DNA from: Macrocystis pyrifera
Lineage: Eukaryota; Sar; Phaeophyceae; Laminariales; Laminariaceae
Assembly: GCA_031763025.1 (NCBI GenBank)
Contig: JASSKH010000015.1
Coordinates: 1,178,001 to 1,242,000, forward strand
DNA length: 64,000 nt
Direction of reading: 5' to 3'
A model generated the notes under the pieces. It did not search any database and was not told the origin of the DNA. It was given only the letters and a program-made list of their open reading frames with translations. Position numbers and translations under genes: made by a program. Below are positions 3,239-48,567 of the stretch, piece by piece. Within the stretch, counting starts at the first letter, position 1. Each line of letters begins with the position of its first letter.

Positions 3239-3303
3239 CAGCACGATGACTCTGCGAAGGCTGCTTTCGCTGCTAGCGCTCGAACTAGCGCAGGAGCCGA
3301 GCC
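3239..3303 (+). pseudogene. Shadow of exon B (5' part)
   Basis: This stretch (GACTCTGCGAAGGCTGCTTT ... GCGCAGGAGCC) is a diverged copy of exon B at about 4868-4923 (GACGCTGCCAAGGCTGCCTT ... GCGCAGGAGCC). It lies in the intron upstream of the real exon, has substitutions and indels, and runs into a C tract. It is best read as a decayed partial exon duplication. Confidence 0.7.
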
Positions 3304-3316
3304 CCCCCCTTCCCCC

Positions 3317-3446
3317 TTCCCTCATGCGACCACGGCCATGACTGATATCGAATACACCCCCCCCCCCCCCCCCCCTGTCTATGGCCATACGACTACGGCC
3401 ATGCATGATAATGAGCACACCCCCCCCCCCCCCCCCCCCCCCGCCC
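3317..3446 (+). repeat. Two truncated copies of poly(C)-ended repeat family B
   Basis: Two back-to-back 3' ends of a dispersed repeat, each passing through a CGACTACGGCCATGCATGA-like word and GATATCGAATACAC or GATAATGAGCACAC before running into a C tract (about 3357-3375 and 3419-3442). They lack the 5' two thirds of the family. Confidence 0.75.
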
Positions 3447-3508
3447 CCGCCCCCTCCCAAAGTTGTATATTTATTATATGCTAAGCAATATTATGAGCCC
3501 CATATATT

Positions 3509-3599
3509 GGGGGGTGTATATTAGGAGCAGGAACGGTGCTCCGCCTCGAAAGGGATGCGTCGTCAATGGTTAAGGCAACAACAAATCAGTAAGCCCCCG
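3509..3599 (+). repeat. Short repeat family C, copy 1
   Basis: About 90 bp running from GGGGTGTATATTAGGAGCAG to AATCAGTAAG before a C tract. The same unit recurs at 4405-4503 and, inverted, at about 5089-5180 and 26364-26477, always bordered by C or G tracts. Confidence 0.7.
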
Positions 3600-4010
3600 C
3601 CCCCCCCCCCCCCCCCCCCAATCCCATCGCTGTCCCTGGAAGTGGCCACACCGGAAAAAAAAAAAATTCGACGCTGTCCTCCGTATGCAAGTCCGCCTCA
3701 CAAGGACTTCTTATTACGGAGGACCATAGGAAATAGGACCAAATATTGTTAGTAAAAATAAGTAAATATATAGGTTTTTTATGTGCACCATAGGTCCTGT
3801 TAACTATGAACCCCCGTAATAGTAGGATACAGCTCATCCTTCATGAGACTCGCCGATTACCTCACGGCGCTTCGCGTTTGGTGCAAGCAATGTCTGTCTG
3901 GTCGGTGAAAACCCGACGTGCTCCGCCCCGGCATTGTAGGGATGCGAGGGTCTATTGCCATACGGCTACGATTATGCATGATAATGAGTACACCCCCTCC
4001 CCCCCTAGTT
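3600..4010 (+). repeat. Poly(C)-bounded repeat family B with nested MITE
   Basis: Near full-length copy. It starts after a C tract with CCCATCGCTGTCCCTGGAAG, GTGGCCACACCGG and GCAAGTCCGCCTCACAAG, is interrupted by a family A MITE at 3714-3819, and resumes with GTAGGATACAGCTCATCC through GGGATGCGAGGGTCTAT to a final GAGTACACCCCC tract. Uninterrupted copies (e.g. near 28586) read TTCTTAGTAGGATG at the insertion point, so the MITE entered at TA. Confidence 0.85.
3714..3819. mobile_element. Palindromic MITE family A, copy 2 (nested)
   Basis: TTACGGAGGACCATAG ... CTATGAACCCCCGTAA flanked by TA on both sides (3712-3713 and 3820-3821), inserted in a family B repeat whose empty site is visible in other copies. 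Confidence 0.92.
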
Positions 4011-4025
4011 TCCATGTAATATTTT

Positions 4026-4391
4026 CACACCTCGGACAGATTAGCTCACGGTAGCTCGAGCCAGCTCTTTAAGGAGCTAGCTCACCGGTGAGCTACGTGA
4101 GCTACGTGAGCTATACATGCTTTCCTGGCTTGAGCTATAGGAGGGTGGCTCATCTGCACATATTTTCCAAGCTTGAGCTATGGAAGATAGCTCATCTGCA
4201 CGTATATGTCCAGAGTGAGCTATAGGAGCTACATGAGCTAGCTCATGTGCCCCCGAGATGAGCTATAGGAGCTGCATGAGCTACACATGTTTCCCCCGGC
4301 TTGAGCTATAGGCGGTAGCTCATCTGCATATGTTTTCGAAGCTTGAGCTATACGCAATAGATGAGCTAGCTCATGAGCTGTCCGGAGTGTG
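4026..4391. mobile_element. CACACCTCGG-ended foldback element with AGCTC interior
   Basis: Terminal inverted repeats CACACCTCGGACAG and CTGTCCGGAGTGTG bound ~366 bp. The interior consists almost entirely of reiterated self-complementary words (AGCTC, GAGCTA, CATGAGCT). Both ends are flanked by AATATTTT (4018-4025 and 4392-4399), an 8-bp target duplication of the kind made by hAT-type transposases. Non-coding, so presumably non-autonomous. Confidence 0.85.
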
Positions 4392-4404
4392 AATATTTTG
4401 AAAC

Positions 4405-4503
4405 AACGTCGGAGGTGTCTATTAGGAACAGGAATGGTGCTGCGTTTCGAAAGGGGATTCGTGGTCAATGACCAAATGGCTCAGGAAAGCAATAAATGAG
4501 TTC
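4405..4503 (+). repeat. Short repeat family C, copy 2
   Basis: GAGGTGTCTATTAGGAACAG ... AATAAATGAGTTCG followed by a ~30-nt C tract. Same unit as at 3509-3599. Confidence 0.7.
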
Positions 4504-4534
<31 letters not shown>

Positions 4535-4757
4535 TCCATATGCAAGTCCTCCTCACAAGCGGTTCTTAGGAGGATGCAGCTCACTCTTGATGCGACTCGC
4601 CGGACACCTCACGGCGCTTCGCGCTTGGTGCGAGCAATGTCTGCCTGGTCGGTTAAAACCCGACATGCTCCGTCCCGGCATCGTAGGGATGCGAGGGTCT
4701 ATGGTCATACGACTACGGCCATGCATGAGATCGAGTACATCTCTCCTATCGAGTACA

Positions 4758-4784
<27 letters not shown>
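4504..4784 (+). repeat. Poly(C)-bounded repeat family B, copy 4
   Basis: Opens with a ~30-nt C tract, contains GCGGTTCTTAGGAGGATGCA, CTTCGCGCTTGGTGCGAG and GGGATGCGAGGGTCTATGG, and ends in a second C tract (about 4757-4784). It stops ~50 bp before the acceptor of exon B. Confidence 0.85.
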
Positions 4785-4788
<4 letters not shown>

Positions 4789-4834
4789 TTTTTTTAAAAT
4801 GTACTATTATCAAACAAAGTTTTTTTTCTTCCAG

Positions 4835-5056
4835 GGGTTCTTCAGCGATCGCGGCAACCAGCAACACAGAAGACGCTGCCAAGGCTGCCTTCGCTGCGAC
4901 CGCGCTAGAAGCGGCGCAGGAGCCCACGCACGTCCACACCTATCTCCTCTACGTCATGGGGTCAGCGATGGGGCTCAAGGCCGCGTGCACCATGCAGCGC
5001 GTACTGGTCTACACGAAGGATTTCCAAGAACATAAGGCGTTTTTTGCGCTCGCAAG
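4835..5056 (+). CDS. Unrecognised multi-exon gene 1, exon B
   Basis: Exon of 222 nt between TTTTTTTCTTCCAG and the donor GTGGGG. It is entered and left in phase 2, completing an Arg codon at both junctions. It encodes an Ala-rich stretch (about 25 residues, TEDAAKAAFAATALEAAQEP) followed by a helical, moderately hydrophobic segment with PTHVHTYLLYVMGSAMGLKA and MQRVLVYTKDFQEHKAFFAL. Codon choice is markedly G/C-ending compared with the flanking intron, which supports coding. I do not recognise the family. Decayed partial copies of this exon lie on both sides (3239-3303 and 5216-5350). Confidence 0.72.
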
Positions 5057-5088
5057 GTGGGGAGGAGGGGAAGGGCAGGGGGGAGGAG

Positions 5089-5180
5089 GGGGGGGGGGGG
5101 GTACTCGTTTTTTGCGTACCTTAGTGATTTTACCATTGGTCATGCATCTCTTTCGAGACGCAGCGGGGGCGGGGGGTGGA
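5089..5180 (-). repeat. Short repeat family C, copy 3 (inverted)
   Basis: Begins in a G tract and reads TTAGTGATTTTACCATTGGT ... TTTCGAGACGCAGC, the reverse complement of the family C unit. Confidence 0.6.
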
Positions 5181-5215
5181 CCAATTAATGTACAGTAAAT
5201 AGAGCATGTGCGTTG

Positions 5216-5350
5216 GTGCGCGTGTAAAGTGACAATGTGGCGCGCGCTGGTCTACTGGCACAGGGTTTTCTGCGCTCTCGAGATGAGGGTTTCGAGGAGG
5301 TGGGTTGGGGCAGGGGAGAAACGGGGGGGGGGGGGTGGGGGGAGGGGAAA
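5216..5350 (+). pseudogene. Shadow of exon B (3' part plus donor)
   Basis: GCGCGCGCTGGTCTACT ... GTTTTCTGCGCTCTCGAG ... GAGGTGGGTTGGGGCAGGGG parallels the end of exon B, its donor and the G-rich start of the next intron (4988-5110). The copy is offset by roughly 240 bp and carries stop codons and indels. It is a decayed tandem duplication. Confidence 0.7.
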
Positions 5351-5409
5351 GGGAGGGGAAGAGAGCTTGTTGGGGATGTGTAAATCAGAGGGGAACGCGG
5401 GAGGAAGGT

Positions 5410-5410
<1 letters not shown>

Positions 5411-5481
<71 letters not shown>
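5411..5481 (+). repeat. 71-nt uninterrupted G homopolymer
   Basis: The longest homopolymer in the window, within a broader G-rich purine stretch (5290-5525) in the intron between exons B and C. On the transcribed-like strand it would place a poly(G) run in the pre-mRNA, a strong quadruplex former. Exact length depends on assembly quality. Confidence 0.85.
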
Positions 5482-5482
<1 letters not shown>

Positions 5483-5635
5483 GAGAGGGGGGGGAGGGTA
5501 GAGGGGAAAAAGTGTGTGTGGGGGGGTTAGGTTCATCATGTACCAGGTACTATTTGTCCAGGACCACGCTGCGCTTGATTAATAATAGCATCAAGCACAT
5601 TTTATACGAAAGATAGGAAGACGGTTCGATCATAC

Positions 5636-5870
5636 AGCGCATACGCTTCATACATGCCGTATGCAGGGGGTCTTTTCTGCTGTTTGAGCTTAGGGTTGAG
5701 CACACATTATTAGAACACCCAGTATCACATTAATATGCGAATATGGTGGCGCATGTCAGCGCATACGCTTCATATACGCCGTAAGCAACGGGGCTATTTC
5801 CGCGGTTTGAGCTTTGCGGGCCGATCATCGCCAGGAACCCAAGGAGGCAAGACACGTTGGGGGGCACAAT
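5636..5870 (+). pseudogene. Two shadows of the exon C acceptor and 5' end
   Basis: Two upstream copies of the exon C acceptor region. The first (5636-5700) reads CATACGCTTCATACATGCCG, ATGCAGGGGGTCTTTTCTGC and GTTTGAGCTTAGGG. The second (5758-5870) reads CATACGCTTCATATACGCCG, GGTTTGAGCTTTGCGGGCCG and ATCATCGCCAGGAACCCAAG, with GGCAAGACACGTTGGGGG. Both match the real junction at 5931-6050 but carry frame-breaking changes. Confidence 0.75.
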
Positions 5871-5974
5871 TTAGCAACACATACCGAGCGACAGTACTCT
5901 ACGCGCATACCGGTGACACCATTACGCTCATACAAGTCATACACCACGTACATGCATCGTGCGTGCGAAAGCAG

Positions 5975-6113
5975 GGGGTTCTTTCCGCTGTTCGAGCTGT
6001 GCGGGTCGATCATCGCCATGAACCTGGCTAGGCAAGACATTTTGGGGGATAAGATGAACAGCCTGCAGCTTCTCTTCCTGGCAGCCTGCCTTAACGCCTA
6101 CTCCGTCTTCAGG
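5975..6113 (+). CDS. Unrecognised multi-exon gene 1, exon C
   Basis: Exon of 139 nt after the acceptor GAAAGCAG, entered in phase 2 and left in phase 0 at GTGAGTG. It encodes a hydrophobic helical segment: GFFPLFELCGSIIAMNLARQ, then a short charged loop, then SLQLLFLAACLNAYSVFR. Two hydrophobic stretches could be buried helices or membrane segments; that is inference. Directly after the donor sits the T-rich end of an antisense SINE (6119 on), so the intron starts with only ~6 bp of ordinary sequence. Confidence 0.7.
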
Positions 6114-6118
6114 GTGAG

Positions 6119-6301
6119 TGTTTTTTTTTTTTTAGTGTTAACCATCACTTTTACTTTCCAGCGCTCTGGACAAGCCATGGCCGACCAAACGCATGGTCAC
6201 AGGTGTCTTGCCTTCTACCCCCTGATACTCGCCTTCAGTTATACCGCGCAGAAGGTTCAGCATTCCCACCGCTCGTCGATATTCATCCAATTTTGCGTTT
6301 T
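6119..6301 (-). mobile_element. tRNA-type SINE, 5'-truncated, antisense
   Basis: Read on the minus strand, this matches the body of the SINE at 33.66-33.99 kb (ATCGACGAGCGGTGGGAATG, CTGAACC, ACACCTGTGACCA, GGCTTGTCCAGA, GGAAAGTAAAAGTGATGGT) and ends in a run of A (a T run at 6121-6133 on the plus strand). Its 5' part is missing, cut off at the family A MITE that begins at 6302. Confidence 0.75.
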
Positions 6302-6406
6302 TTACGGGGGACCATAGTATATAGGACCTACGGTACACACAAAACCTATATGATTACCTATTTTTACTAACAATATTTGGTCCTGCTTACTATGGCCCCC
6401 CCGTAA
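6302..6406. mobile_element. Palindromic MITE family A, copy 3
   Basis: TTACGGGGGACCATAG ... TATGGCCCCCCCGTAA, with TA on the right side only. It abuts the truncated SINE. Confidence 0.88.
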
Positions 6407-6666
6407 TAGCTCACGCTTTCACGCTTTCTTTCCGCGATGAGAAAAAGGTACTGCTGTGAATCACTTTTTGGTTTGACACGTGGGCATGTCAACATGTACT
6501 CATGTGCTCTGAGCACTCCCATGTGTTTTCTTAAGTTGTTTTTCACGTGGATTACCACTTTGTACGGAAGTTATTAAAGTTTTTTTTTTTTATGTCATGT
6601 TAATATTAATACCGAAAAAGTGCTTATATTCGCACACAGCAGTTGTTACTCGTAGCTAGAACCAAC

Positions 6667-6903
6667 CTGTTCACAGGTCACGACCCGATCCGCCGGTCGG
6701 GTCAGGAGGTCTTCAAAATCTCACGGGTCGGGCCGGGCCGGGTCGGGTCGGACCAGGATGTCTTCAATTTCTCAAGGGCCAGGGTCCGGTCGTGTCGGGT
6801 GGACTCAAGAGGTCTTCAAAATCTCACGCGTCCGGTCGGGTCGGGTTAGGTGACCCGACCCGACCGGACCCGCGAGTTTTTTCCTGACCCTTGAACAGTC
6901 CTG
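6667..6903. mobile_element. CAGGG-type element filled with GGGTCGGGTC words
   Basis: The right end reads TGACCCTTGAACAGTCCTG and the left end CCTGTTCACAGGTCACGACC. The interior is largely GGGTCGGGTC and its complement, with AGGTCTTCAAAATCTCACG repeated. A related element is at 45693-45891. The CAGGGCTGTTCA-like end resembles hAT termini; the left end here is decayed. Confidence 0.6.
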
Positions 6904-7117
6904 GTTGTAAATATCGTATATCGCTACCACGTACCTGGCACCAGGGGCATGAACCTATCGCTACCACTCGGTCTATCCGGAAACATAGAGTGTGTCTCGA
7001 TATTCACGTCAAATCCGAAACAATAGGGCTTTTGAGTCGGCACGGCTTACTGCTGCGAGTCACCAGCTACCACCATGGTATCACTAGTCATTATTAATAG
7101 TATTCACTACAGTACTA

Positions 7118-7153
7118 TTACGGGGGACCATAGTAAATAGGACCAAATATTGT
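7118..7153. mobile_element. Palindromic MITE family A, 5' remnant interrupted by another copy
   Basis: The first ~36 bp of a copy (TTACGGGGGACCATAG to AAATATTGT) are broken at TA by the complete copy at 7156-7260. A short piece of the interrupted copy (GTAAAAATAGATA) continues after 7262. Confidence 0.85.
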
Positions 7154-7155
7154 TA

Positions 7156-7260
7156 TTACGGGGGTCCATAGTTAACAGGACCTATGGTATACATAAAAAC
7201 CTATATATTTACGTATTTTTACTAACAAAATTTGGTCCCGTTAACTATGGACCCCCGTAA
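7156..7260. mobile_element. Palindromic MITE family A, copy nested in copy
   Basis: Complete 105-bp copy, TTACGGGGGTCCATAG ... CTATGGACCCCCGTAA, flanked by TA at 7154-7155 and 7261-7262. Removing it plus one TA restores the family sequence ATTGTTAGTAAAAATAG. Confidence 0.93.
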
Positions 7261-7294
7261 TAGTAAAAATAGATACGAACAGTACTTATTAATA

Positions 7295-7400
7295 TTGCGG
7301 GGGACCATAGTTAACGGGACCAAATATTGTTAGCAAAAATAGATAAAATATGTAGGTTTTTATGTATACCATAGGTCCTATTACCTTTGGACCCCCGTAA
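7295..7400. mobile_element. Palindromic MITE family A, copy 6
   Basis: TTGCGGGGGACCATAG ... TTTGGACCCCCGTAA with TA at both flanks, 35 bp downstream of the nested pair. Confidence 0.9.
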
Positions 7401-7782
7401 TAGTCGTTTCTCGGCGGTGCCGACTATCCGGTCTGCTGGGTTTCCATACTTGCAGGAAGGATTGTTGAACGCGATTGTTGTGACACTCTGCAATTTTCTT
7501 TTTTCCAAGTCGGCAGGTTGGTTGGCCATCAGCTGGCTTCGCCAGCCACCTTGCTCACTACTGTGGAGTCATTCATTAGTATTAATAGTTATCTAACGAC
7601 ACCTATATACCGAGTTATTACCGTTGGTAGCCGTGAACTCCTGTCGACTCTCAGCTCTACCAAACACACTATATTTCCGAGCAGAGGGGTATGGTGATGG
7701 GTTTCGAATTATAATCTGCTGCTGTAGTTCGATAACTGGCACTATGTGCAACTGTGGACAGAAATATAATACCCGTTTGTAG

Positions 7783-8226
7783 TCTAATGTGAAAATCGAA
7801 CGGTTACTATATTAACGGCCGGAGTGATACCGAAAACCGAAAGTTCATGTGAATATCAAACGGGCCTTCTGTTACCGGCCGGAGTGATACCGATAATCGA
7901 AATTCAGTGTGAACATCGAACGGGTTTGATACTATCGGCCGAAATGATACCGATAACCGATTTTTAATGTGAATATCAAACAGGTATTGTATTGCTGGCC
8001 GGAGTGATAACCGATAAATGAAAATTTAATGTGGATATCAAACGGGGATACCTGCTACCAGGCATGAATACCGGCTGGAGTGATACCCACAACCAAAATT
8101 TTATGTGAATATCAAACGGGTACATACTGCTGTAATACCGACCAGGATGATACCGATAACCGAAATTTAGTGTGAATATCAAACGGGTACGTATGATATT
8201 TCCGGCCAGAGTGATACCGATAAACC
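7783..8226 (+). repeat. Minisatellite, seven units of ~61 bp
   Basis: Seven diverged units start with ATGTGAATATCAAACGGG or close variants (about 7787, 7847, 7907, 7967, 8029, 8101 and 8169). Each also contains CGGCCGGAGTGATACCGATA-like sequence. No coding signal. Confidence 0.88.
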
Positions 8227-8642
8227 AAGGATCATATGATATCATATAACTATCTGGTATATGAATAGGATACGATTTCGATAGTACATACATATGATAT
8301 AAATCATTCGTCGAAGCTTTTCGTCCAGTATTATATCAAAACATACGAGGATGCCAGGGAACGCGTTCGATACGATGTACCAGGTATCGAAACTTGGACA
8401 TATCGATTTATCGAATAGTACATATCAGTACCAGGTACATATATATATTCGATAATTAGTCTCTTGCGTCTTTTATTTTCACCCCACACTACCCCCCCCC
8501 CCCCCGCCTCCCCACCTCTCTCTGCAGCCGACCCACTCCCCATCCCCGCCCCCATTCCCCAGTCCAATCCACCTACTCCACCGCTCCCCACCCTCCATTC
8601 CACTCATGTAACCCCCTCCCCTCCATAATCGCCTCTGTAAAG

Positions 8643-8696
8643 GGTACAAAACCGGTGTTCAAGTGGGCGTCATCGAAGCCATGGGACGAGTTGCAG
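8643..8696 (+). CDS. Unrecognised multi-exon gene 1, exon D
   Basis: Small 54-nt exon after a long pyrimidine tract and TAAAG, ending at GTTGCAG|GTGAGT. Phase 0 at both ends fits exon C before and exon E after. It encodes GTKPVFKWASSKPWDELQ, an ordinary-looking protein segment. The clean acceptor tract and perfect donor are the main evidence. At 18 residues I cannot exclude chance. Confidence 0.5.
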
Positions 8697-9227
8697 GTGA
8701 GTCCAAGCGGTACATATCCTACTGGGAGTATTAACAGCAGCAGTAGTCATTAATCAGACTCGAAGTAGAATACTAGTATTAGTAATACAGTTGTACAGTA
8801 GAGCAGTATTAATAGTAGACTTGATACGTACAGTGATGGTAGTAGTAGAGTGCTTGCAGTAGCAGGAGCAGTAGAGTTGGTGGCCAGTAATAATAGTAGC
8901 AGGATAGTAGTTAGACATAGTAGCTATATTATTAATAGTAGTAGACCAATCGTATTGTATTGTGGTATATTGGTTAAAGCACGTACGTATCACACGGATG
9001 TTATAGCAGGCATGAAGTGCAAAACGGAAAAATTCCCCCACTGGTGTGAAGCTATGATGCTAAAGATACGTGCAACCTCGGAAATGTTTTTTACCATTTC
9101 CTAAATATCGACACACCCACTCTTTGGACTCCGCAGCTTCAGATTCTGTCTTCCTCATGTGCGGCCAGTATTCCTGCATGGGGCCATGTGAAATCCGTAC
9201 GCAGTACGCTCGATCGAAGTATCACTA

Positions 9228-9332
9228 TTGCGGGGGGGCATACTAAATAGGACCTACGGTACACACAAAAACCTATACATTTCCCTATTTTTACTCACAG
9301 TATTTGGTCCTATTTACTATGGTCCCCCGTAA
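9228..9332. mobile_element. Palindromic MITE family A, copy 7
   Basis: TTGCGGGGGGGCATAC ... CTATGGTCCCCCGTAA flanked by TA on both sides (9226-9227, 9333-9334). Confidence 0.9.
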
Positions 9333-9719
9333 TAGTATGACTAGTATGAGTAGTATGACACACAGACAGACAGACAGGTTAGGTTGCGAAGATGATGGGT
9401 TTCGAAGAAATCCTCGATCTCACTTACAGCTAGCTGTTGCTTTTTAGTTTCTTGCAGGAGTGTTGCAGCATTGTAGTACTAATAGTAGTTTGCCTCCCGA
9501 GCAAGAAAGGTGGCTAACGTGTCATACTGCTGTTAATACTGCATTACACTGCAATGCTGTCGACGACCGCATGCTATAATCGAGAGGATATCATACACAA
9601 GACACGAATTTCGGAGTCGATTTTCCTCCTGCTAATGTTAAGAAACGAGGGCCGCACACACCCGCAAACACAACGACGAAACAGCAGCGGCTTTGGAAAT
9701 ATGCTGTCAAGGTGTTTTC

Positions 9720-9750
9720 GCAGACAGACAGACAGACAGACAGACAGACG
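9720..9750 (+). repeat. (ACAG)n microsatellite
   Basis: About seven uninterrupted AGAC units. A shorter run lies near 9360-9376. Confidence 0.85.
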
Positions 9751-9854
9751 CATCGCCCGCCGTTCGCGCTGTCCCCGTTCTCGATACAATATAAAGACAC
9801 TTGTTACATCAGCTTTGAAATTCGTGGGAGGGAGGCGGGGCTTCTGTTTTTCAA

Positions 9855-9978
9855 CAACCCTTCTAAGATTCCCGCCGTTTTGTTATCTTAACCCTCATTT
9901 TTCCCCCCCGTTTTGGGGACAAACCAGTCAAATTATAAGTGATTTGTCCCCAGATCGGGACTGCAGTCGTAGAAGGGT
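9855..9978. mobile_element. Palindromic MITE family P, copy 1
   Basis: Imperfect foldback whose arms contain CCGTTTTGGGGACAAA and TTTGTCCCCAGATCGGGACT, ending in CTGCAGTCGTAGAAGGGT. The same arms recur at 34183-34276 and 38512-38600, with a half copy at 46240-46290. Confidence 0.7.
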
Positions 9979-10373
9979 CAAGTCTCATGTGCTATATATA
10001 CTGCTGCTGTACCTGGTACACTATCATCATGTTATACGCACTTTAATAGATACTATAATTACGATTTTTGAGGTCGTTGTCACTTGCTAGCTCTTGGCAG
10101 ACAGACCGACTGATAGACCGCTCTTCGCGAACAGCCCTTCTTCTTTGAAACAGCCGAACAGTCAAACAACCAAACAACCTTTCTTCTTTCTTCTTCGCAA
10201 ACTGCAACCAATAGACAGCTCTTCGCACAACGCCTAGAAGAGGCGTCTCGCCTTCGACGAACGGCATCTAGATGCAGCTGTAGGCGGCCAAGCTGCTTGC
10301 TGCTGTCTGCTGGTGCTGCAACCCCCGCCTCTCTCTTCTCCACGCCCCCTAAGCTCACCTCCCCCTCGTCGAG

Positions 10374-10644
10374 AGGCGCGTGGTCCTCGCCCTCTGGCAA
10401 GAGAGCGGCAACGACAAAGACCGACCTGGTGCCGACTGTTGTTTGCGACCGGTGCACGGACCAGCACTTACTTACTTGCCCAAGAACTCCGCGCCTGGTG
10501 GCAAAAACGTGGCCTTCGCCACCTGCGAGGATCTCATGTGCGATGGTGGCGGGATCATCCTGTATTGGCCAACCAACTGCGAGTTATGTGCTCGCCCGAT
10601 CAAGGAAGGGACTGTCTCGTACCCCCTCGAGACTGCTCACAGTG
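10374..10644 (+). CDS. Unrecognised multi-exon gene 1, exon E (Cys-rich)
   Basis: Exon of 271 nt after a pyrimidine-rich tract and GTCGAG, entered in phase 0 and left in phase 1 at AGTG|GTGAGT. It starts RRVVLALWQESGNDKDRPGA and carries a Cys-rich half: CEDLMCDGGGIILYWPTNCE followed by LCARPIKEGTVSYPLETAHS. The spacing CxxxxC...CxxC with a downstream His/Cys in exon F suggests zinc binding. The second CxxC is followed by Ile and Gly in the same order as in exon G, as if the two modules were related. The family is not recognised; function is unknown beyond a probable metal-binding fold. Confidence 0.65.
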
Positions 10645-10812
10645 GTGAGTGTCTTGGGTCTATTGTTGAATGCTGTATGTTGCCAGTACGTTTTTTTGGG
10701 GTTTTCAATTGCCTTTTTGCATACAAACCTACCTCAAAGCGTTTATCATTTTTTGGACTCATCCATGCTCGTTCTTTCCCCTTCGTGCGTTGCGTCGGCT
10801 CCTCTTACACAG

Positions 10813-10901
10813 TGCACGCGAACGCGCACATGCACAACTGTTTGCGGGACGTGAACGAAGGAACGGAGGATTCAGCTGTCGCCGTCACCGCACCGAACGA
10901 T
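10813..10901 (+). CDS. Unrecognised multi-exon gene 1, exon F (His/Cys)
   Basis: Exon of 89 nt between CTCTTACACAG and GTGAGTGC. It enters in phase 1, exactly completing the split codon from exon E, and leaves in phase 0. It encodes HANAHMHNCLRDVNEGTEDS then AVAVTAPND. The HxxxHxHxC cluster would supply the His/Cys half of the zinc module begun in exon E. The continuous phase through three exons is the strongest argument that these are real. Confidence 0.65.
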
Positions 10902-10969
10902 GTGAGTGCTGCTGCTACTGTGGTGCATTTTCGGTGCACACGATTTCTGTGTGTACATGTTTTGGTGAC

Positions 10970-13130: not shown

Positions 13131-13263
13131 TATAGCAAGCGATTACGTACTGCTGTTGTGCCGCTGTAGAGCAGTACAAATAATGAACTCTGCCCCCCTT
13201 CCCCCTCCCCCGCCATTCCCTGCACGCCACTCCCGCCCCGCGCACCCTGTTTACTTCGATCAG

Positions 13264-13426
13264 GTCGGTGGCAAGTGCTACAACTGCCGCCTGACGGACT
13301 CCACCATCAAAGACGGAGACATCATCATCAAGCGCAAAAAGACTCCCTTCCATTTCGCCTGCTCCAGGGCTTCGCGGAATTCCGAAGCAGTACGCCAAGC
13401 AGATTGTCTCCATCCAGGACGAATGA
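13264..13426 (+). CDS. Unrecognised multi-exon gene 1, exon G (second CxxC module, possible 3' end)
   Basis: Begins after a long C-rich pyrimidine tract and CGATCAG, in phase 0 as left by exon F. The first ~36 codons look coding: VGGKCYNCRLTDSTIKDGDI, then IIKRKKTPFHFAC, giving CxxC ... HxxC, a likely second zinc module. After the HFAC block the same frame turns unconvincing. The +1 frame reads LRGIPKQYAKQIVSIQDE and stops at 13424-13426, so either a frameshift has occurred near 13355-13375 or the exon ends differently. An AATAAA polyadenylation-like signal is at about 13842. The exact end is uncertain. Confidence 0.6.
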
Positions 13427-18282: not shown

Positions 18283-18296
18283 GTGCGGGGGAACTT

Positions 18297-40800: not shown

Positions 40801-43800
40801 ATCGGTGCGACCACTACACCTGTTTCCGTCGGCATTTATCGGTACTATTATTAATAATATGCCTGTGGGAAGCATTGAATCGATGGCATATCTCCACAGG
40901 TCTGTCTGCACACTCCACAGCAGTGTACAGAAATGACATTGCCACATTGCCACATTGCCACATTGCCATGAGTAAGTATCTCTGCTCGGATGAAGCTTTG
41001 TTGTCATGTATGAGCAACTAAAGCAGCAGGAGCTTTACCCCCGCGCTGTTCCGTCGGTAGCCTAAATCCCACCGTAAGTTTTTACCCTACTCCGTCGGTA
41101 ATACCAACATACCTGGGGCAATAAGGTACATCAATATACCTGGGGCGGTGAGGGTTGAGCGCCTTAATAGCCTCAGGGACTCTCTGAGTACGCCGTCATG
41201 CCCGAGGGCCAAGGACTGTGCGGAGAAGCGACCATGTCTGCGCAGCAGAAGCACTCAGATATAAACACATTTTGCCTTTTGCCCCCCCCCCCCCCCCCCC
41301 CCCCCCCCCGGCTGGTGTTCCTTCGGTGGCACCCTACCCTACCCTACCCTACCCTATGATACTCTGTCTGTCTGTCTGTCGGTAATAGCAATACGCCTGG
41401 GGCAAGAAGGGTCGCGACAGCGTAGTGGCCAAGCTGAAGGGTCTCGGGGACTCTGAGTACACCGTCATGCCCGAGGAGAACTACGCCGAGATGTGGATTG
41501 GAACTCACCCCAGCGGGCCTAGCAGGGTCATGCGGGATGGTTGCCCCGGACCCCTGCTCAAGGTGAGGCGTGCATACCGTGCAACACGAAAGAAAAATAG
41601 CAAACCCATGGGATGAACTTTTTAGCGGAGTTTGTTGATAGTAAGGGGGGCACGCAACGAAAATGGCGGCTTTGGAAGCATCTATTAACAGACGAGATCT
41701 TTCCGTAGACGCGTCGCTCGACGTTTGGAACCTTCGCCTGTTGTCGAGAAAGTCAGCTTCGAACTTCGTCCACGGCAAGAGGGTGGTTGCTATCCTTGGT
41801 AGTTCGAGGCATGCAGTAAAGTGTACCTGGTAGGCAGACAACAACAGTCAGTGCATGTTGGAGAAGGTGTTCCAACAAGCGCCGAAAAACTATCGCATCG
41901 CTCTGCGAAGACGTCAACAAACACGCTCTTGACTTTCCGGAAACACGACGTTAAATGTTGGACTTTGTTGTAGCACCCTCTGCGAAGTCAACAAACACGC
42001 TCTTGACTTTCCGGAAACACAACGTTACTAAGACTGTTGGACCTTAATTTAGCCCTTACGGTACCCTTACCTTACCCTTACCGTTGCCGTTGCCGAGAAA
42101 AACGAGCACTGAAAACTCTCGCACCTCCGTGGCAACTACCGCTCTTTTGCTGCTTTACTACGGCAGTTACGTGCGCCAATTTGGGGAGTTCTTGGTTTTT
42201 GTATCTGACTGCCGAGCGCGGTGGTGACCGGAATTTGCGTTTTTTCATCGAGTACTGACGAATACTGCCGGGTGTTTTTGAGTCGGCTGGCTTCCTTCAT
42301 CACACAGGTAGTGCTGCAGTGGCGAATATAGTGACTAGCGGTGACGTCGTTATTGTGACTAGCGGTGACGTCGTTATTTGCGGTTAGCCAATCAGTAGGC
42401 CGTGTTGCAGCTTGACTGACTTTTGTAGTTTTTAATGGCAAACCTTGCCGAGTATTTGAGTCGGCTGTTTTCCTTCATCACCCAACTACTGGTGTCGTAA
42501 GTATTAACGTTAATAAGTTATTAAGAGTAAGCCAACCAGTAGCATGTGTTGCTTGACCGACTGCTTGTGCAGCTGCTACTGCTGTTGCTGTTGTGTACGT
42601 GCGTGTTCTATTATTAATAGTAGTGCTGCTGTATGTATCCGCAGATAATTCCTTGGGTCGAAGTGAAACCATGATGATCTATTAATAAATGCTTCGTGTA
42701 TATACCCAGTTCTGATTATTTTGCTCTTTTTCTCCGAAGATATCCTTGAGTCGGCTGTTTTCCTTCATCACCCAACTACTGGTGTCGTAAGTATTAACGT
42801 TAATAAGTTATTAAGAGTAAGCCAACCAGTAGCATGTGTTGCTTGACCGACTGCTTGTGCAGCTGCTACTGCTGTTGCTGTTGTGTACGTGCGTGTTCTA
42901 TTATTAATAGTAGTGCTGCTGTATGTATCCGCAGATAATTCCTTGGGTCGAAGTGAAACCATGATGATCTATTAATAAATGCTTCGTGTATATACCCAGT
43001 TCTGATTATTTTGCTCTTTTTCTCCGAAGATATCCTTATTCAATTTTGCAGTGGTGGCAACAGCAGCCGCAGCGTTGGCCTGGCGGATGGACGCAGCGTC
43101 TTCCGCGGCCTGGCGAGCCTCGGCCGCGGCTATCCCAACACGGCGTGCGTCTACCTCCGCTTGCACAGCAGCTACAGCAGCACGAGCGTTCGCCTCAACT
43201 TCTGTTTGTGCAGCAAACCTCGCAGCCTGGGCCTCGCGCGCAATAGTAGACGCATTGGCCGTGGCCTCCGGCGACTTGCTCTCGTCGGACATCCCGAACT
43301 CAAACTAGTCTCACACCTTGGACCTGTAGCTCTGCCTCTGCTTCACTGCGCTGATACGTGTAGGTTGCGGCTACGTACCAGACAAGGTGTGTCTACCAAG
43401 GGCTACGATTCAAGCTACCGTGAATCACCGCAGTCATCTGATTGGCTTGAACTTCTTACGTACGTACAAAACTCACATTCTCTCATTCTTCCGAGAATAT
43501 TCTGCTTTTCTCCGAAGATATCCTTATTCAATTTTTTCCGTGTTGTCGGCGTTTTTTGTTTTTTTCTGTTCGAGATTGTTCTGTCACAAAACTGTAGAAA
43601 TCGGGGCGATGAATTGTCTTGTGTACTACCAGGCATCTACTTGCCTGGTACCTACTTGGTACCTACCTGGTACATATTATCAATGGTATTGCTATTAATA
43701 GGTATGTTTGATAAAGTTCTGTATATTCCTGGCGTTTGTGTGTTTTTTTCTTTAATTCCTGTAGGAAGTGCTGGACGACAACCCTCACGTTCTTGGAGCT

Positions 43801-46800
43801 ATCCGCTGGAAGGGAGACCTGCCTTTCCTCTTCAAAGTCATCTCCATCAGCAAGGCGCTCAGCATACAGGCGCACCCTGACAAGGTATTTGTTTGTATGC
43901 AGTCGTTAGTCGAGGTATCTGTTATATGGAGGCGTTACTCTTATTTTGTTTTATTGTCTTTTTGATTTTGCGTTGTTTCGTTTCTCAAGTCATCGTCTGT
44001 CACCCCCCCCTCTCTTATTGTTACCGTTGAGCATACTGCTGTGTACCTACTCGTATCGTTTTTAGCCTGCACGCCGAGCATGCAGACTTAAACCTCGTAT
44101 GCAAAAACGGCTTGGCCTGATTGTATTAGTGTGTTATTTTGTTACTGTATTGTTTGGTTGATTTATTGCATTATTGTGTTACCGATTTGCTGAGAGTTTT
44201 TTTAGTAAGAGGTACTTTTTTTTATTCTTATTTATTTTGTCGGCCCTCTAATATGTACATTTTCGCGCACGTACCTTTTGTCGTTATTTTGCCGTTTCAG
44301 CGCCTGGCGGAGAGGCTGCACGCCGAGCGCCCGGACGTCTACAAGGACGACAACCACAAGCCGGAGATGGCGGTCACCCTGTCGGACTTCGAGGGCCTCT
44401 GTGGCTTCCGACCCTTCTACGAGATCGTCTGGAACCTGCACGCCTACCCTGGTGAGTGCAACACCTTTCGTCTTTTTGTCGTTTTCCTTGCCTTTTTTGG
44501 TCTTTTTTTGCGGTTTTGCTTTTCGCCTTTCCCTTTCTTATCTTATACCTGGTACCTGGTATGTTTTTTTGCCTTTCGACCGGTCGCCTTTCGCTCCCTT
44601 GCCTTTTTTCAAATTCCCAGCCGCGTTTTTGCCTTCTGTACCTTTTGCCTCTCAGTTTTGTGCGTCTTTTGCTTTTTCTTTTTCCCTTTTGCCTGTCGTC
44701 TTTTACCTTTGGACTCTTTCACATTTCCCTTTTTCCCATTCACATTCCACCCTTCGCGTTTTTTTTTCGCTTTTCGCCTCTTGCCTTTCGCTTTTCATCT
44801 TGGTCTTTTTTTCTTCCTGGATCCTAATTGGATTCCCCCTTGCTGTATTGTCGCCGGCCCAGAGCTCCGCGGAATGGTTTCCTACTCGGCCCTCAAGGCG
44901 GTGTGCTCGGCGGGCGATGACTTGGCCCGACAGAGGATGGCCCTCAAGAAGCTTTTCGGCTCTTTCGTCAAGTGCGACAAAAACGTCGTCCGGACTCAGG
45001 TGGCCGCCCTCGTTAGCAGGCTCGAGAAAAACGCCCCCGTGGTGAACCCCGGCCGCCCCGTCTCACCACCGCCTTCCAAGAACCCCGAGCGCGCTCCGGA
45101 GCCCATCCGAGAGGCTCTTATTGCTCACAAGGCTGCTGTGGAGTCTCAGGCAGCTGATGAAGCTTCGCAGGCTCCGACTCCCATGTTGACCCCGTCGACT
45201 TCGCTGTCAGCTTCGATTTCTTCGTCTTCTAGCGCGGACGGCTGTACCATCCCGGCGGTACCTGAGGGGTGTGTTGTCGGTGGGGGTAACCTTACCCGGA
45301 ATGCTTCCATGCATTTGGGAGGCAGCATGCGGGGGGGGGCTGGGGGCAGGCACGCTATGGTTGGGACCTTGCCCTCGGCAAAACTAAGCCACGACAGTCT
45401 GGACAGAATGCTGGATGTGGATGTGGATGTGGGGATGGGGGTGGACGTGGAGGCCGTGAGCGTTAGCGGGGATGGTAGTGAATCGTCCCCGGTCAGGGCG
45501 GACCCGGGTGGTCAGTGCGCGAGGGACACTCTGGCGGACGAGACCGCTTCTGAAGAGATTTTCGGGAAGGCCTTCCGAGGGGGGCCGGAGGCTGCAACGA
45601 GATTGGCCGCCAGGCTTCAGCGTGAGGTGGGTTTGTCCGTTTTTTTTTTTTTTTTTTTTTTTTTTATTCTGGTTGTTTTGACGGGCTTTGACCAGGGCTG
45701 TTCACGGGGCGGGTCTAACCTCCTGGGTCAGGTCGGGTTGGCTCGGGTCAGGGTGACCCTACTCGGCTCGTGAGATTTTGAGAACCGTCTGACCCGACCC
45801 GACCGGCCGGACTGGACCCGGCCCGTGAGATTTCCAAAAGTTCGTGACCCGACCCTCGAATAGGGTCTTACATGACCCCTGAAGAGCCCTGGTTTCGTGA
45901 CGGGACGCGGCGTTAATGTGGGAATTTTCTGTTGGTGGGCTATGTTTCATTTGACGTGGGAGAGGGATCGTTTGTTGTGGGTCGTTCGTTGTTGCGGCGG
46001 AAATTTGTAGCGCAAGGTGATGCGTTTTTTTTTTTTGTCTCGGTGCGGGTGTTGAGGGCGCGGGGGAGGATGTTGGTTGTGCGCGTTTGGTTTCTCTTGT
46101 TATTTATTTTTGGTCCCAGGGTTTGTGTCTTTCAAGGGGGGTCGGAGGCGGCAGCAAGACTGGCCGCCAGGCTGCAGTGGGAGGCGGTCTTTTGTGTTAT
46201 ATTACAGTGCTTGTATCACGGCAAGAATGCACCGACTCTGTTTTGAAGCAGATTGTCCCCAAAACGTGGGTTCGGCTCTGAAGGGATTGATTGTTGTTGC
46301 TTCTGTTAGAGGTGTTGCTGCGGGTTCTCATGGTGCGAGGCGTGTGTGTTTTTCTTAGGTCCGTGTACGGGTGTTATATACATACGAGTATATATCAATT
46401 GAGGCAGGCGGGGGGGTTGTTGTGGCGACGAAGGATGGTCCAACAACGTTGGTTGAGCTCTTAAGGGTTGTTGACTCTGGTACAGGTGTTGCGGCGGGTT
46501 TTCATGGGGGCGAGGTATTTGTGTATTTTGTTGTCTGTGTACGGGTGCTTTTTTCTTGTCTTTTCTTGTATAGTGGTTGTTGTGAGTTGTTCTTTTTTTG
46601 TGGGTTGCTAATTTTTTCCCCCCTTGTTTCCTTCGTGGCTTGCAGGATGCGGACTCCCAGCGCGTGATGCTCCGGCTGTCGAAGGAGTATCCCGGTGACC
46701 TAGGCATCTTGATGCCTCTCATGCTCAATCTGCTCCAGCTCAAGCCCGGCCTGGCCTTCTTCATGACCGTTGACGAGCCCCACGCCTACCTTCGCGGTGA

Positions 46801-48567
46801 CATCCTTGAGGTAAGATCAGTGACAGCATATCATCAGATTGTTGACAGATGGTTGATATAAATGTACCTAAATGGTGAATATAGAAAGTCGTAGATTTGG
46901 GATTATGCAAAGGTTGTAAACGACAGATGCCTGGTGATATACACAATAACTGACCGCGTTGTGATCGATCTTACGTTTACCTTCGCGGTGACACTCTTGA
47001 GGTGAGAGATCACGACAGATCATCGACAGTCATTGACAGGTCGTCGACATATGCATGAAAACATGGTGAAAACAAGATGAGTTGAGGTGAAATCACGAAA
47101 GATTCTCGACAGATGGACAGTTCATTGACAGGTCATCGACATGTGTATGAAAACCTAGTCAAGACAACAAATATGAGTTGAGGTGAAATCACGAAGGATC
47201 CTCGACAGATCATCGGCAATCTGAACATACATCAAAATGTTGAAATACACCAAAGATTAACGGAGGCGGGGATACGACAGATACATCGACAGTTTATCGA
47301 CGTATCACTTTATTTTTTCTTCATCAGCAGCATTTCTTTTCTAACAAGCATTTCTCTTCGGGCAGTTCTCCGCGAAAGCGTTTCGCCTGTAGTATATCTA
47401 TCTCAGTTTATCTGCTATTGATGGCTTTTGTTCTCTGCTAATCTTTCTCTGGCAGTTTTCCTCGGCTAACCTTTATCTGCTACTATTTCGCTTGCCGATA
47501 TTTTTTCTGTCAACTTTTGTCTGGCACGACCAGGTCATGGCGTGCTCCAACAATGTCGTCCGAGCGGCTCTGACCCCCAAGTTCCGCGACGTGAACCTCC
47601 TGGTAGAGATGCTCACGTACAACATGGGTGCACCGGCGGTATTGCCGGCTGAAACGGTCGACGCCTGTCGCAAACGTTACACGCCTCCGATCAACGACTT
47701 CGAGATTCAGATCTTGCAGGTAGGACGCCGTGAAAAATGTGTCGAGGAAGGTGCATAGAAGGTACCCGGGTATCGAGGACCTGGTTGTATTGGGCATACT
47801 CCGGTAGGTACCCGAGCACCCGGGTACCAACTCGAGAACCTGTATTTTTTGGGCATACTCTTGTAGGTACCCGAGCACCCGGGTACCAAACCTGGTTGGT
47901 GTGATGATACTCGGGTAGGTACCCGGGTACCCTTCAGATGATTGCCTGCTGAGGGTGATTGAGACATGCGATGCTCGCCGCACGGCTCCGATGAACGACT
48001 TGGGAGATGCCGATGTTATTTTCTTGACTCCCAATATCGTAACCCTTTCATATAGCACTGCACTGCTCTACATTAATCTCCTAAATCTGAGTCTAATCCC
48101 TTTCCTTCACGACGGGAGTGCAGTCCTGAAGGCGTTTTACTTGAAAGTCCTGTTGCGTACTACTTGCAGTTTTTTTCTTGTCGACCAGATTTATGGACCC
48201 CCCGCCACCCCCCGCCGCTTTTGCCCCCTTTCGCTTCGTTCCCATCTCCTCGCCTCACAAACGCCAGGTTCCCGCAAACGAACGGTATGACCTGGAAGCG
48301 ATGGAGGTACCGGTAGTGATGGTCGCGCTAGCCGGCGGCGCTGACGGCCGCGTGATCGAGAGCGAGAGTGGCCGGGAAATTAAGGCATGTGAAGGAGGCG
48401 TGTTTTTCCTCCCAGCGTACACCGCTGTAGTGGTGTGCTCTGGTTCGAAGGGTGACGGTATTAAGATGGCCCTGGCGCACACGAACCTCCACTGGGGAGC
48501 GCTGGCGGCCCCTACTCCGAATTCTCCCAGGAGGCGCGGCTCTGCGCGTGCCCCTGCGTTCGCGTAG
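31862..48567 (+). CDS. MPI: Mannose-6-phosphate isomerase, type I (eight exons)
   Basis: Zinc enzyme interconverting fructose-6-phosphate and mannose-6-phosphate in the cytosol, feeding GDP-mannose and thus glycoprotein and cell-wall polysaccharide synthesis (in brown algae also alginate and fucoidan; that link is inference). Exons: 31862-31888, 41389-41562, 43765-43884, 44301-44451, 44863-45626, 46646-46810, 47534-47719, 48268-48567. All introns are GT...AG and the frame is continuous for ~628 residues. Zinc ligands expected of the family are present: Gln and His of SIQAHPDK (about 102, 104), Glu of NHKPEMA (129), and His of PHAYL (458). The active-site Arg lies in VVRAALTPK (477). The protein is ~200 residues longer than usual, chiefly from a low-complexity insert at about 217-387. 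Introns range from 411 bp to 9.5 kb. Confidence 0.95.
33664..33992 (+). mobile_element. tRNA-headed, A-tailed SINE
   Basis: The head has pol III A-box-like TGGCTTGGTATACATAGG and B-box-like GGGTTCAAACC (T-arm GTGGG-TTCAAAC-CTCAC), ~45 bp apart, and a near 7-bp acceptor-like pairing. The body (GACGAGCAGTGGGAATGCTG, ACACCTGTGACCACGG, GGCTTGTCCAGA, GGAAAGTAAAAGTGATGATG) matches the antisense copy at 6119-6301. The 3' end is an A-rich tail (33970-33991). It lies in MPI intron 1. Confidence 0.75.
34183..34276. mobile_element. Palindromic MITE family P, copy 2
   Basis: ACTGCAGTCCCGTTTTGGGG and TCTCCAAAACGTGACTGCAG form the arms. In MPI intron 1. Confidence 0.8.
34980..35190 (+). repeat. Two-unit repeat and dispersed-repeat cluster
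   Basis: Two units containing GGGCCGAGTTTCCGACTTG, TTGGGTTTCCATACCTGTA / CTGGGCTTCCATACCTGTAA and TTCTGCTTTTATA, ~120 bp apart. A relative lies near 7420-7455. Followed at 35262-35390 by a copy of the GGCTCGCTTCGCTCGCC / AGTCGACTTGCCGACTTAC repeat. Confidence 0.7.
36829..36880. repeat. AT-rich (ATATATCG) palindromic run
   Basis: ATCGATATATCATATATCGA and related words form a self-complementary stretch in MPI intron 1. Confidence 0.75.
37690..38000 (+). repeat. Diverged tandem duplication, ~150 bp
   Basis: Blocks such as ATCTGCCTTCCCAGCCACAT / ATCTGCCCGCCCAGGCACAT and GCCAACTAACTGACTCTAAA / GCCAACTGACTGACTTAAAT occur in the same order twice. Confidence 0.65.
38512..38600. mobile_element. Palindromic MITE family P, copy 3
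   Basis: CGCCGCAGTCCCTTTTGGGG ... TCTCCCCAAAACGCGACTGC, ending CTGAAAGGG. Confidence 0.82.
38655..38762. mobile_element. Palindromic MITE family A, copy 11
   Basis: TGACAGGGGTCCATAG ... CTATGGTCCTCCGTAA with TA flanks; diverged termini. Confidence 0.85.
39560..39655 (+). repeat. Two-unit tandem repeat, ~43 bp
   Basis: TGTAATATGTGTAGCCAAAT followed by GGCGGTGTACCGTAAAT occurs twice, with a third partial GTGTACCGTGAATTT. Confidence 0.8.
41101..41235 (+). pseudogene. MPI: Shadow(s) of MPI exon 2 acceptor and 5' part
   Basis: Upstream of true exon 2 lie two decayed copies of its start. The first (41094-41126) reads CGGTAATACCAACATACCTG GGGC. The second (41130-41235) reads TCAATATACCTGGGGCGGTG, then GACTCTCTGAGTACGCCGTC and ATGCCCGAGG. 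They match the true exon (CAATACGCCTGGGGCAAG ... GACTCTGAGTACACCGTC ATGCCCGAGG) but contain stops and indels. Confidence 0.85.
41281..41309 (+). repeat. C homopolymer (~29 nt)
   Basis: Uninterrupted C tract between the shadow of exon 2 and a (CCCTA)n run at about 41331-41356. Confidence 0.85.
41389..41562 (+). CDS. MPI: MPI exon 2
   Basis: 58 codons, phase 0 both ends, from GGTAATAG to CTCAAG|GTGAGG. Carries the N-terminal family motif QYAWGKKG, then [19 protein letters not shown], the substrate-side WxGTHP block typical of type I isomerases. Confidence 0.95.
42270..42420 (+). repeat. Diverged older copy of the 290-bp repeat
   Basis: Shares TTGAGTCGGCTGGCTTCCTT, AGCCAATCAGTAGGCCGTGT and TTGACTGAC words with the two downstream copies but is much diverged and carries its own small duplication (GTGACTAGCGGTGACGTCGT twice). 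Confidence 0.75.
42456..43035 (+). repeat. Perfect 290-bp tandem duplication
   Basis: 42456-42745 and 42746-43035 appear identical by eye, each running from TTGAGTCGGCTGTTTTCCTT to TTCTCCGAAGATATCC. In MPI intron 2. Either very recent or an assembly artefact. Confidence 0.92.
43020..43292 (-). CDS. Ala-rich coiled-coil-like ORF nested antisense in MPI intron 2
   Basis: On the minus strand an ATG at 43292 opens ~90 codons: [20 protein letters not shown], then long Ala/Glu/Arg heptad-like sequence ([40 protein letters not shown]) and a tail LNKDIFGEK shared with sequence near 43.5 kb. The composition is typical of an extended helix. G/C-ending third positions favour the minus strand, although the plus strand is also open. 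It may be a small gene, a first exon, or a fragment of a mobile-element protein such as gag; family not recognised. Confidence 0.4.
43765..43884 (+). CDS. MPI: MPI exon 3
   Basis: 40 codons, phase 0 both ends, between CCTGTAG and GACAAG|GTATTT. Contains [19 protein letters not shown], then AHPDK: the first two zinc ligands (Gln, His). Confidence 0.95.
44063..44090 (+). pseudogene. MPI: Short shadow of MPI exon 4 start
   Basis: TTTAGCCTGCACGCCGAGCA resembles the exon 4 region GAGGCTGCACGCCGAGCG, including a TAG acceptor-like flank. Only ~25 bp, so tentative. Confidence 0.35.
44301..44451 (+). CDS. MPI: MPI exon 4
   Basis: 151 nt, enters phase 0 after GCCGTTTCAG and leaves phase 1 at CCTG|GTGAGT. 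Holds [10 protein letters not shown] (zinc-ligand Glu) and [13 protein letters not shown], both strongly diagnostic. Confidence 0.95.
44863..45626 (+). CDS. MPI: MPI exon 5, with long low-complexity insert
   Basis: 764 nt, phase 1 to phase 0, from GGCCCAG to CGTGAG|GTGGGT. The first ~59 residues ([14 protein letters not shown] ... VSRLEKNAP) are the helical insertion of type I isomerases, and the last ~25 ([20 protein letters not shown]) rejoin the family. Between them are ~171 residues rich in Pro, Ser, Gly, Ala, Val and Asp (for example [26 protein letters not shown]) with no counterpart in the usual enzyme. The frame stays open throughout, so this is probably translated, but a missed intron is possible. 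Confidence 0.88.
45693..45891. mobile_element. CAGGG-ended element with GGGTC words
   Basis: Ends CAGGGCTGTTCACGGG and CCCCTGAAGAGCCCTG are inverted repeats. The interior is dominated by GGTCGGGTTGGCTCGGGTCA and TGACCCGACCCGACC. In MPI intron 5. The hAT-like CAGGGCTGTTCA terminus is suggestive; no exact target duplication. Confidence 0.7.
46121..46195 (+). pseudogene. MPI: Shadow of MPI exon 5 3' end
   Basis: GGGGTCGGAGGCGGCAGCAA, GACTGGCCGCCAGGCTGCAG and TGGGAGGCGG copy GGGGCCGGAGGCTGCAACGA, GATTGGCCGCCAGGCTTCAG and CGTGAGGTGG at 45578-45630. The donor GT has become GC and a base is altered upstream, so it is not a usable duplicate exon. Confidence 0.85.
46240..46290. mobile_element. Half copy of palindromic MITE family P
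   Basis: ATTGTCCCCAAAACGTGGGT followed by GGCTCTGAAGGGATT corresponds to one arm of the family. Confidence 0.5.
46646..46810 (+). CDS. MPI: MPI exon 6
   Basis: 55 codons, phase 0 both ends, between GGCTTGCAG and CTTGAG|GTAAGA. Encodes [27 protein letters not shown] and EPHAYLRGD, with the third histidine-type zinc ligand in PHAYL. Confidence 0.95.
46940..47300 (+). repeat. MPI: Shadow of MPI exon 6 end plus degenerate ATCGACAG repeats
   Basis: 46971-47005 (TACCTTCGCGGTGACACTCT, TGAGGTGAGAGATCACGACA) copies the last ~25 bp of exon 6 and its donor (TACCTTCGCGGTGACATCCT, TGAGGTAAGATCAGTGACA). The following ~300 bp repeat GATCATCGACAGTCATTGAC-like words, seemingly amplified from the start of the same intron. 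Confidence 0.75.
47534..47719 (+). CDS. MPI: MPI exon 7
   Basis: 62 codons, phase 0 both ends, between CGACCAG and TTGCAG|GTAGGA. Encodes [20 protein letters not shown], the most conserved block of the family with the catalytic Arg, then [11 protein letters not shown]. Confidence 0.96.
47755..47935 (+). repeat. GGTACCCGGGTACC minisatellite (MPI intron 7)
   Basis: About three ~60-bp units with TTGGGCATACTC, GTAGGTACCCGAGCACCCGG and ACCTGGTTG. Related units recur at 52680-52870. Confidence 0.85.
47939..48012 (+). pseudogene. MPI: Shadow of MPI exon 7 3' end
   Basis: GATTGCCTGCTGAGGGTGAT, TGAGACATGCGATGCTCGCC and GCACGGCTCCGATGAACGAC align, with small indels, to exon 7 at about 47640-47710 (TATTGCCGGCTGAAACGGTC ... 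ACGCCTCCGATCAACGAC). The equivalent of the donor is lost. Confidence 0.8.
48268..48567 (+). CDS. MPI: MPI exon 8 (C terminus)
   Basis: Begins after ACGCCAG and ends at TAG 48565-48567. Encodes the C-terminal cupin-like strand region: [20 protein letters not shown] ... [20 protein letters not shown], then [14 protein letters not shown] and a basic, low-complexity end ([14 protein letters not shown]). The 99 residues fit the usual end of the enzyme. Confidence 0.93.
   Translation, partial: VPANERYDLEAMEVPVVMVALAGGADGRVIESESGREIKACEGGVFFLPAYTAVVVCSGSKGDGIKMALAHTNLHWGALAAPTPNSPRRRGSARAPAFA

Follow-up and report, generated by a model that had tools for sequence, protein, structure and literature searches.

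The window examined here is a stretch of 64,000 nucleotides from the kelp Macrocystis pyrifera (contig JASSKH010000015.1, positions 1,178,001 to 1,242,000). A gene for mannose-6-phosphate isomerase type I (MPI) lies at 41-48.6 kb. It carries Pfam family PF20511, matches solved isomerases with E down to 1.5e-67 (PDB), and has a single open frame through exons 2-8, which are the exons that we traced, exon 1 not being located. In a second gene, gene 1 (2.7-6.1 kb), the frames stay open across exons A, B and C. A Pfam scan of 1-10001 on the plus strand gave no family for it, and comparison with the PDB gave nothing confident and two weak matches (E 0.13 and 0.16). At E 0.01 no Pfam family was found on the plus strand of 10000-20000, on either strand of 20000-30000 or on the minus strand of 30000-40000, and a phage-collection search came back empty. 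The open frames at 57250-61522 look like a retrotransposon polyprotein, to judge by apparent motifs of the reverse-transcriptase kind.

Two dispersed repeat families are scattered through this DNA. One, about 110 bp long, has copies that match one another both directly and inverted, and in this it resembles a small inverted-repeat transposable element; copies of the other are mostly 80-88% identical and often stand beside a long C run. Gene 1 includes an 88-base G run (5411-5498, 90% matches) with many long C or G runs nearby, and a long (ACT)n microsatellite of 132 units occupies 62189-62583. On the minus strand of MPI intron 2, an alanine-rich open stretch of 83 codons (43053-43301) shows coding-like codon use.

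Both genes have short, worn copies of exon ends in the noncoding DNA beside their exons. The eight candidate copies, which we call shadows, are listed in Table 1 together with the parent exons and the other local repeats.

Table 1. Parent exons, shadow copies and repeats in the window.
Feature	Position	Strand	Basis or remarks
Gene 1 exon B	4835..5056	+	open frame with splice sites
Gene 1 exon C	5975..6113	+	alignment, open frame
MPI exon 2	41389..41562	+	Pfam, open frame, structure match
MPI exon 5	44863..45626	+	open frame, solved-isomerase match
MPI exon 6	46646..46810	+	open frame, solved-isomerase match
MPI exon 7	47534..47719	+	open frame, solved-isomerase match
Shadow, exon B acceptor end	3142..3298	+	blastn limits; 140/221 columns matched
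Possible shadow, exon B donor end	5180..5336	+	marginal; 113/180 columns
Shadow copy 1, exon C acceptor end and upstream intron	5578..5702	+	acceptor AG kept
Shadow copy 2, exon C acceptor end	5706..5911	+	acceptor AG to AC
Shadow, MPI exon 2 acceptor end	41091..41230	+	94/141 columns; AG to AC
Shadow, MPI exon 5 donor end	46129..46203	+	blastn 76%; GT to GC
Shadow, MPI exon 6 donor end, with long intron homology	46973..47292	+	donor GT kept
Weak shadow, MPI exon 7 donor end	47906..48017	+	78/121 columns; stops short of donor site
Degenerate intron-only tandem array, gene 1 between exons A and B	4088..4389	+	
Intron-only tandem duplication, MPI intron 2	42456..43037	+	2 x 290 bp, 100% identical, off any known junction
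Degenerate intron-only tandem duplication, MPI intron 5	46251..46547	+	offset about 183 bp
Copies of the ~110 bp element	3712-3824, 6302-6409, 7154-7402, 9225-9335, 14140-14248, 23788-23898, 25590-25701, 38652-38764		blastn
Copies of the second repeat family	3820-4006, 4567-4739, 28587-28771, 27177-27296, 49476-49864		blastn

The first alignments of the shadows, made within hand-set intervals, recovered all eight copies, some of whose ends coincide with an interval edge. Within these intervals the two exon C copies match the exon in 90/145 and 105/157 columns, the exon 5 copy in 83/136 (46127-46242) and the exon 6 copy in 115/169 (46973-47130). In the exon B acceptor copy the signal lies in the exon part, at about 3239-3303. 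Each alignment spans a single exon end, and the exon part is gapped in six of the eight copies. The initial annotation held that the copies usually include the splice site; the splice dinucleotide in fact survives in just three of the eight (exon B acceptor, exon C copy 1 and exon 6).

We measured these resemblances against two kinds of null. The first test compared exon-only queries from 18 exon ends (17 distinct) with 2 kb of local noncoding DNA; the null came from distant 2-kb blocks, searched on both strands, which supplied 104-110 scores. Five copies stand out clearly. Direct scores, with the null maximum in brackets, were 238 (135) for the exon B acceptor, 254 (119) for the exon C acceptor, 214 (134) for the exon 2 acceptor, 195 (129) for the exon 5 donor and 172 (124) for the exon 7 donor. 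The exon C donor (202) and exon 2 donor (165) likewise top every null value, because these exons are short and the query spans the acceptor-side copy; in all, seven of the 18 queries beat every distant-block value, and these seven represent the five copies. The exon 6 donor, with only about 30 matched exon bases, scored 131, a value reached by 4 of 104 null scores, and the exon B donor was marginal (118, reached by 6 of 106).

The second test took 60 exon and 60 intron bases straddling each junction and compared them with 200 dinucleotide shuffles. Here the exon 5 donor (z 13.3), exon C acceptor (12.3), exon 6 donor (9.7) and exon B acceptor (6.6) were prominent. The exon 2 acceptor reached z 4.3 with a score of 140, below the shuffle maximum of 148, and the donors of exons 7 and B gave z 2.2 and 2.4. 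Such an alignment of exons with their own introns under shuffled controls is what the initial annotation had proposed as a check on its claim of worn exon-end copies beside the exons of two genes. The claim largely held up: one or both tests place six junctions above the null, and seven of the eight listed copies are supported. We take these six junctions and seven copies to be real; the eighth copy, of the exon B donor (placed by that annotation at 5216-5350), is marginal.

For comparison we used a gene from the same assembly that was found by a coding scan. It encodes mitochondrial aconitase, has 15 exons and matches solved aconitases with a reported E of 0. Its introns after e1 (L007 2944-2945) and e13 (L010 4680-4681) begin with apparent GC rather than GT donors. 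Only one of its 28 exon-end queries (24 distinct) beats the distant-block null, the e4 donor (239 against 156); in the shuffle test the e4 donor scored 320, and the e13 acceptor also exceeded its shuffles (133 against 126).

Three of the copied junctions have a tandem layout with homology that extends into the intron. In a wide-window alignment the exon C copies occupy 5578-5702 and 5706-5827, with four bases between them, and the match to the real exon end covers the full offset of 166, giving a three-copy tandem array. At exon 6, blastn aligns 46782-47112 with 46973-47292; this covers the offset of about 191 bp, the repeat continues through the intron, and further tandem copies of about 95 bp lie inside it. 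At aconitase e4, 5446-5639 aligns with 5605-5781 (144/200), covering the offset of 159 and running through the donor, whose dinucleotide is kept. When the intron part was masked and tested alone, the exon 6 score was reached by 0 of 300 shuffles and that of exon C by 9 of 300. A retrocopy of spliced RNA would end at the splice junction and lack intron sequence, unlike these three copies, which carry intron homology.

At the other junctions the masked intron part is not above chance. Its score was reached by 56 of 300 shuffles for exon 5, 113 for exon 7 and 193 for the exon B acceptor, where the intron part is rich in poly-C, and for exon 2 by 199 of 300 upstream and 293 of 300 downstream. Faster decay of introns also predicts an absence of intron homology, so these results decide nothing on tandem origin. 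We infer that the copies of exons B, 2, 5 and 7 arose in tandem too.

The side and orientation of the copies are regular. Across 46 junctions in the three genes, all matches that rose above the shuffles are in direct orientation and on the side predicted, upstream for acceptor ends and downstream for donor ends; six junctions did so (exon B and exon C acceptors, exon 5 and exon 6 donors, the aconitase e4 donor and the e13 acceptor). No inverted match exceeded the shuffles at any of the 46. The initial annotation had noticed the same rule of sides, and it holds at every junction that passes a test. In the exon-only comparison, an inverted score of 127 at the aconitase e10 donor ties the null maximum. 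Sliding 60-mers over nine exons point the same way: 18 of 90 exceed the null on some side or strand, and 15 of these belong to the copied ends, with acceptor-end matches upstream and donor-end matches downstream; exons C and 2 are so short that these 60-mers take in much of their length. The other three are exon 5 at offset 40 (downstream, 87 against 85), exon 8 at offset 80 (downstream, 110 against 101) and exon 5 at offset 220 (inverted, 91 against 83). These strays are about what chance would give, because two sides and two strands were compared for each 60-mer.

We think that each shadow is probably the exonic half of an old tandem duplication, in most cases of about 100-600 bp, that happened to straddle a junction. 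Short tandem duplications would arise irrespective of exons. Where one crossed a donor, the upstream copy would keep the exon whole and its donor functional, and the downstream copy would strand a piece of exon and a spare donor within the intron; an acceptor would give the mirror image. Only such arrangements spare the protein, so those would survive: selection would remove duplications that break the frame, leaving the straddling ones with their spare on the intron side. The position of the copies at exon ends, and the side on which they fall, would follow because selection would leave just these from tandem duplications placed at random. The shadows themselves are presumably neutral, and slippage, template switching or repair may have produced the duplications.

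A rival possibility is that breaks were filled, in the course of end joining or synthesis-dependent repair, with short pieces copied from nearby DNA. The lengths of the shadows and their close templates would fit such templated insertions, and for exons B, 2, 5 and 7, where flanking intron homology is not demonstrated, adjacency is unproven. Templated insertions are expected in both orientations, however, whereas no inverted junction copy rises above the shuffles and most of the window's local pairs are direct. Moreover, a tandem arrangement is seen in the copies of exon C, exon 6 and aconitase e4. We therefore regard this explanation as unlikely.

Local duplication in the window is by no means confined to exon ends. 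We surveyed 926 noncoding segments of 120 bp for a match within 2 kb scoring at least 170, noncoding here meaning everything except the ten known exons and so including the retroelement-like stretch. Direct matches were found for 202 segments, inverted matches for 27, and matches in the reversed control for two; with segments that have a distant match removed, 157 direct and five inverted matches are left. The excess over the reversed control becomes smaller at lower thresholds (direct, inverted and reversed: 252, 40 and 18 at 150; 350, 122 and 103 at 130). The offsets of the noncoding pairs have a median of 256 and quartiles of 138-596. Eight 10-kb stretches chosen by position gave 107 direct, 27 inverted and two reversed matches among 1198 segments, although two of the eight break the direct excess (L009 with two direct and six inverted, L006 with ten of each).

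We compared exon ends with the DNA in and around the introns of gene 1 and MPI (2900-6500 and 41000-48300). Of 112 segments there, 35 have a local direct copy and lack a distant match, eight of these 35 lying within shadows; among exon ends the count is five of 18, or six counting exon 6. The two rates do not differ (Fisher p = 1.0), and against all noncoding DNA of the window the p values are 0.21 and 0.11. In the aconitase gene just three of 149 intron segments have a local copy without a distant match; with the distant-match filter off, there are seven direct, one inverted and two reversed. The window is richer in local duplications than the aconitase gene. Exon ends differ between them at p = 0.028 (5/18 against 1/28), the shuffle counts do not differ significantly (4/18 against 2/28, p = 0.19), and segments give a Fisher value of 1e-11, in which adjacent segments are not independent.

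These comparisons bear on the interpretation offered by the initial annotation, in which a mutational process centred on junctions, such as splice-site-focused repair or slippage, repeatedly copies them. Supported copies do lie at exon ends, at six of the 18 junctions of the two genes. But duplication is just as frequent among segments in and around the introns of these genes, copies of either kind are few in the aconitase gene, and selection acting on random tandem duplication predicts both the end position and the side. Local, tandem duplication is the likely source; a process aimed at junctions is rejected as the leading reading because nearby segments are equally often duplicated, and we consider it quite improbable.

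Could the shadows be alternative or poison exons that arose by duplication and serve in regulation? Full tandem exon duplication, as seen in mutually exclusive exons, yields whole exons with usable splice sites. The kelp shadows resemble it in that exon sequence is duplicated inside a gene, and three of eight, together with the aconitase e4 shadow, keep their splice dinucleotide. Unlike such duplicates, they are single exon ends in decay: no shadow forms a whole exon with two usable splice sites, five of eight have lost the dinucleotide, and the gaps in the exon parts add to a picture that makes a regulatory role highly improbable. Clusters of exon-like fragments in introns, then, need not imply alternative exons or a special mechanism.

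It is scarcely credible that the shadows reflect chance resemblance, low sequence complexity or dispersed repeats. The region is rich in homopolymer runs and dispersed repeats, and the weak copies of the exon B donor (a distant inverted match at 8482-8664) and exon 7 donor (first 27 bases shared with a repeat near 52.7 kb) do match elsewhere. But after masking, distant-block nulls and shuffles, six junctions still surpass the null in one test or both, and the copies of the exon B acceptor and of exons C, 2, 5 and 6 have no distant blastn match within the window, which refutes this explanation for these five as far as the window goes.

The reading of the shadows as exonic halves of straddling tandem duplications has precedents. 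In the RdRp gene of potato, a tandem duplication across an intron-exon boundary is described as having made a new intron through a cryptic donor (PMC4974935). As in that account, the duplication crosses one boundary and a formerly exonic piece ends in an intron; unlike the potato case as described there, the kelp genes keep the old splice site, and the piece sits within an existing intron (PMC4974935). A survey of 20 eukaryotes reports partial or intronic exon duplications in more genes than full-exon ones (PMC12343006), and the kelp copies agree with this in being exon sequence, some of it degenerate, in introns of the same gene. To what the survey sets out in the portion drawn on here, our analysis adds the rule of sides, the comparison with intron-only duplications and the brown algae (PMC12343006). 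Among brown algae, Ectocarpus is described as having large introns with many intronic transposable elements (PMC12477816); our search of the open-licence literature found no paper on exon-end shadows in this group. The shadows are thus an instance of boundary duplications that have already been described, in a region rich in local duplications. Random tandem duplication with selection predicts where the copies lie and on which side, and so turns a striking pattern into a simple expectation.

Under the same reading, the spare copy would decay while the exon copy, held by selection, would hardly change, so that the exon half should be recognizable for longer than the intron half. We simulated exon-shadow and intron-intron pairs of equal age under assumed rates of indels and silent change. 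Exon-shadow pairs averaged 184-224 and scored at least 170 with a probability of 0.60-0.90, against 0.01-0.04 for intron-intron pairs. In the simulation, exon-anchored pairs stay detectable far longer, so copies linked to exons would seem unduly common. The model therefore suggests that the exon half is lost more slowly. Divergence within the alignments is less clear-cut. Mismatches at codon positions 1, 2 and 3 were 18.1, 18.4 and 27.4% in the interval alignments (p = 0.009) and 20.1, 23.9 and 24.9% in wider windows (p = 0.38), where two of eight rows were unusable (the alignment of the exon B acceptor shifted to a dispersed repeat, and exon 6 was paired with itself); the excess at third positions varies with the alignment limits and so gives no firm support for slower divergence of the exon copy. 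Intron columns within the alignments differ at 23.9% (92/385), which is not twice the 18.2% of codon positions 1 and 2.

If slower loss of the exon half held genome-wide, exon-anchored copies could gauge old intron duplication. It is possible, though doubtful on present evidence, that exon ends are a long-lived record of past tandem duplication. Were that true, straddling duplications in large-intron, duplication-rich genomes such as this one could be counted and dated further back than intron-only ones, and tandem microduplication might prove a leading source both of intron growth and of decoy splice sites that are later disabled. The complete identity of the intron-only pair in MPI intron 2 marks that duplication as very recent and indicates that duplication here is recent as well as old.
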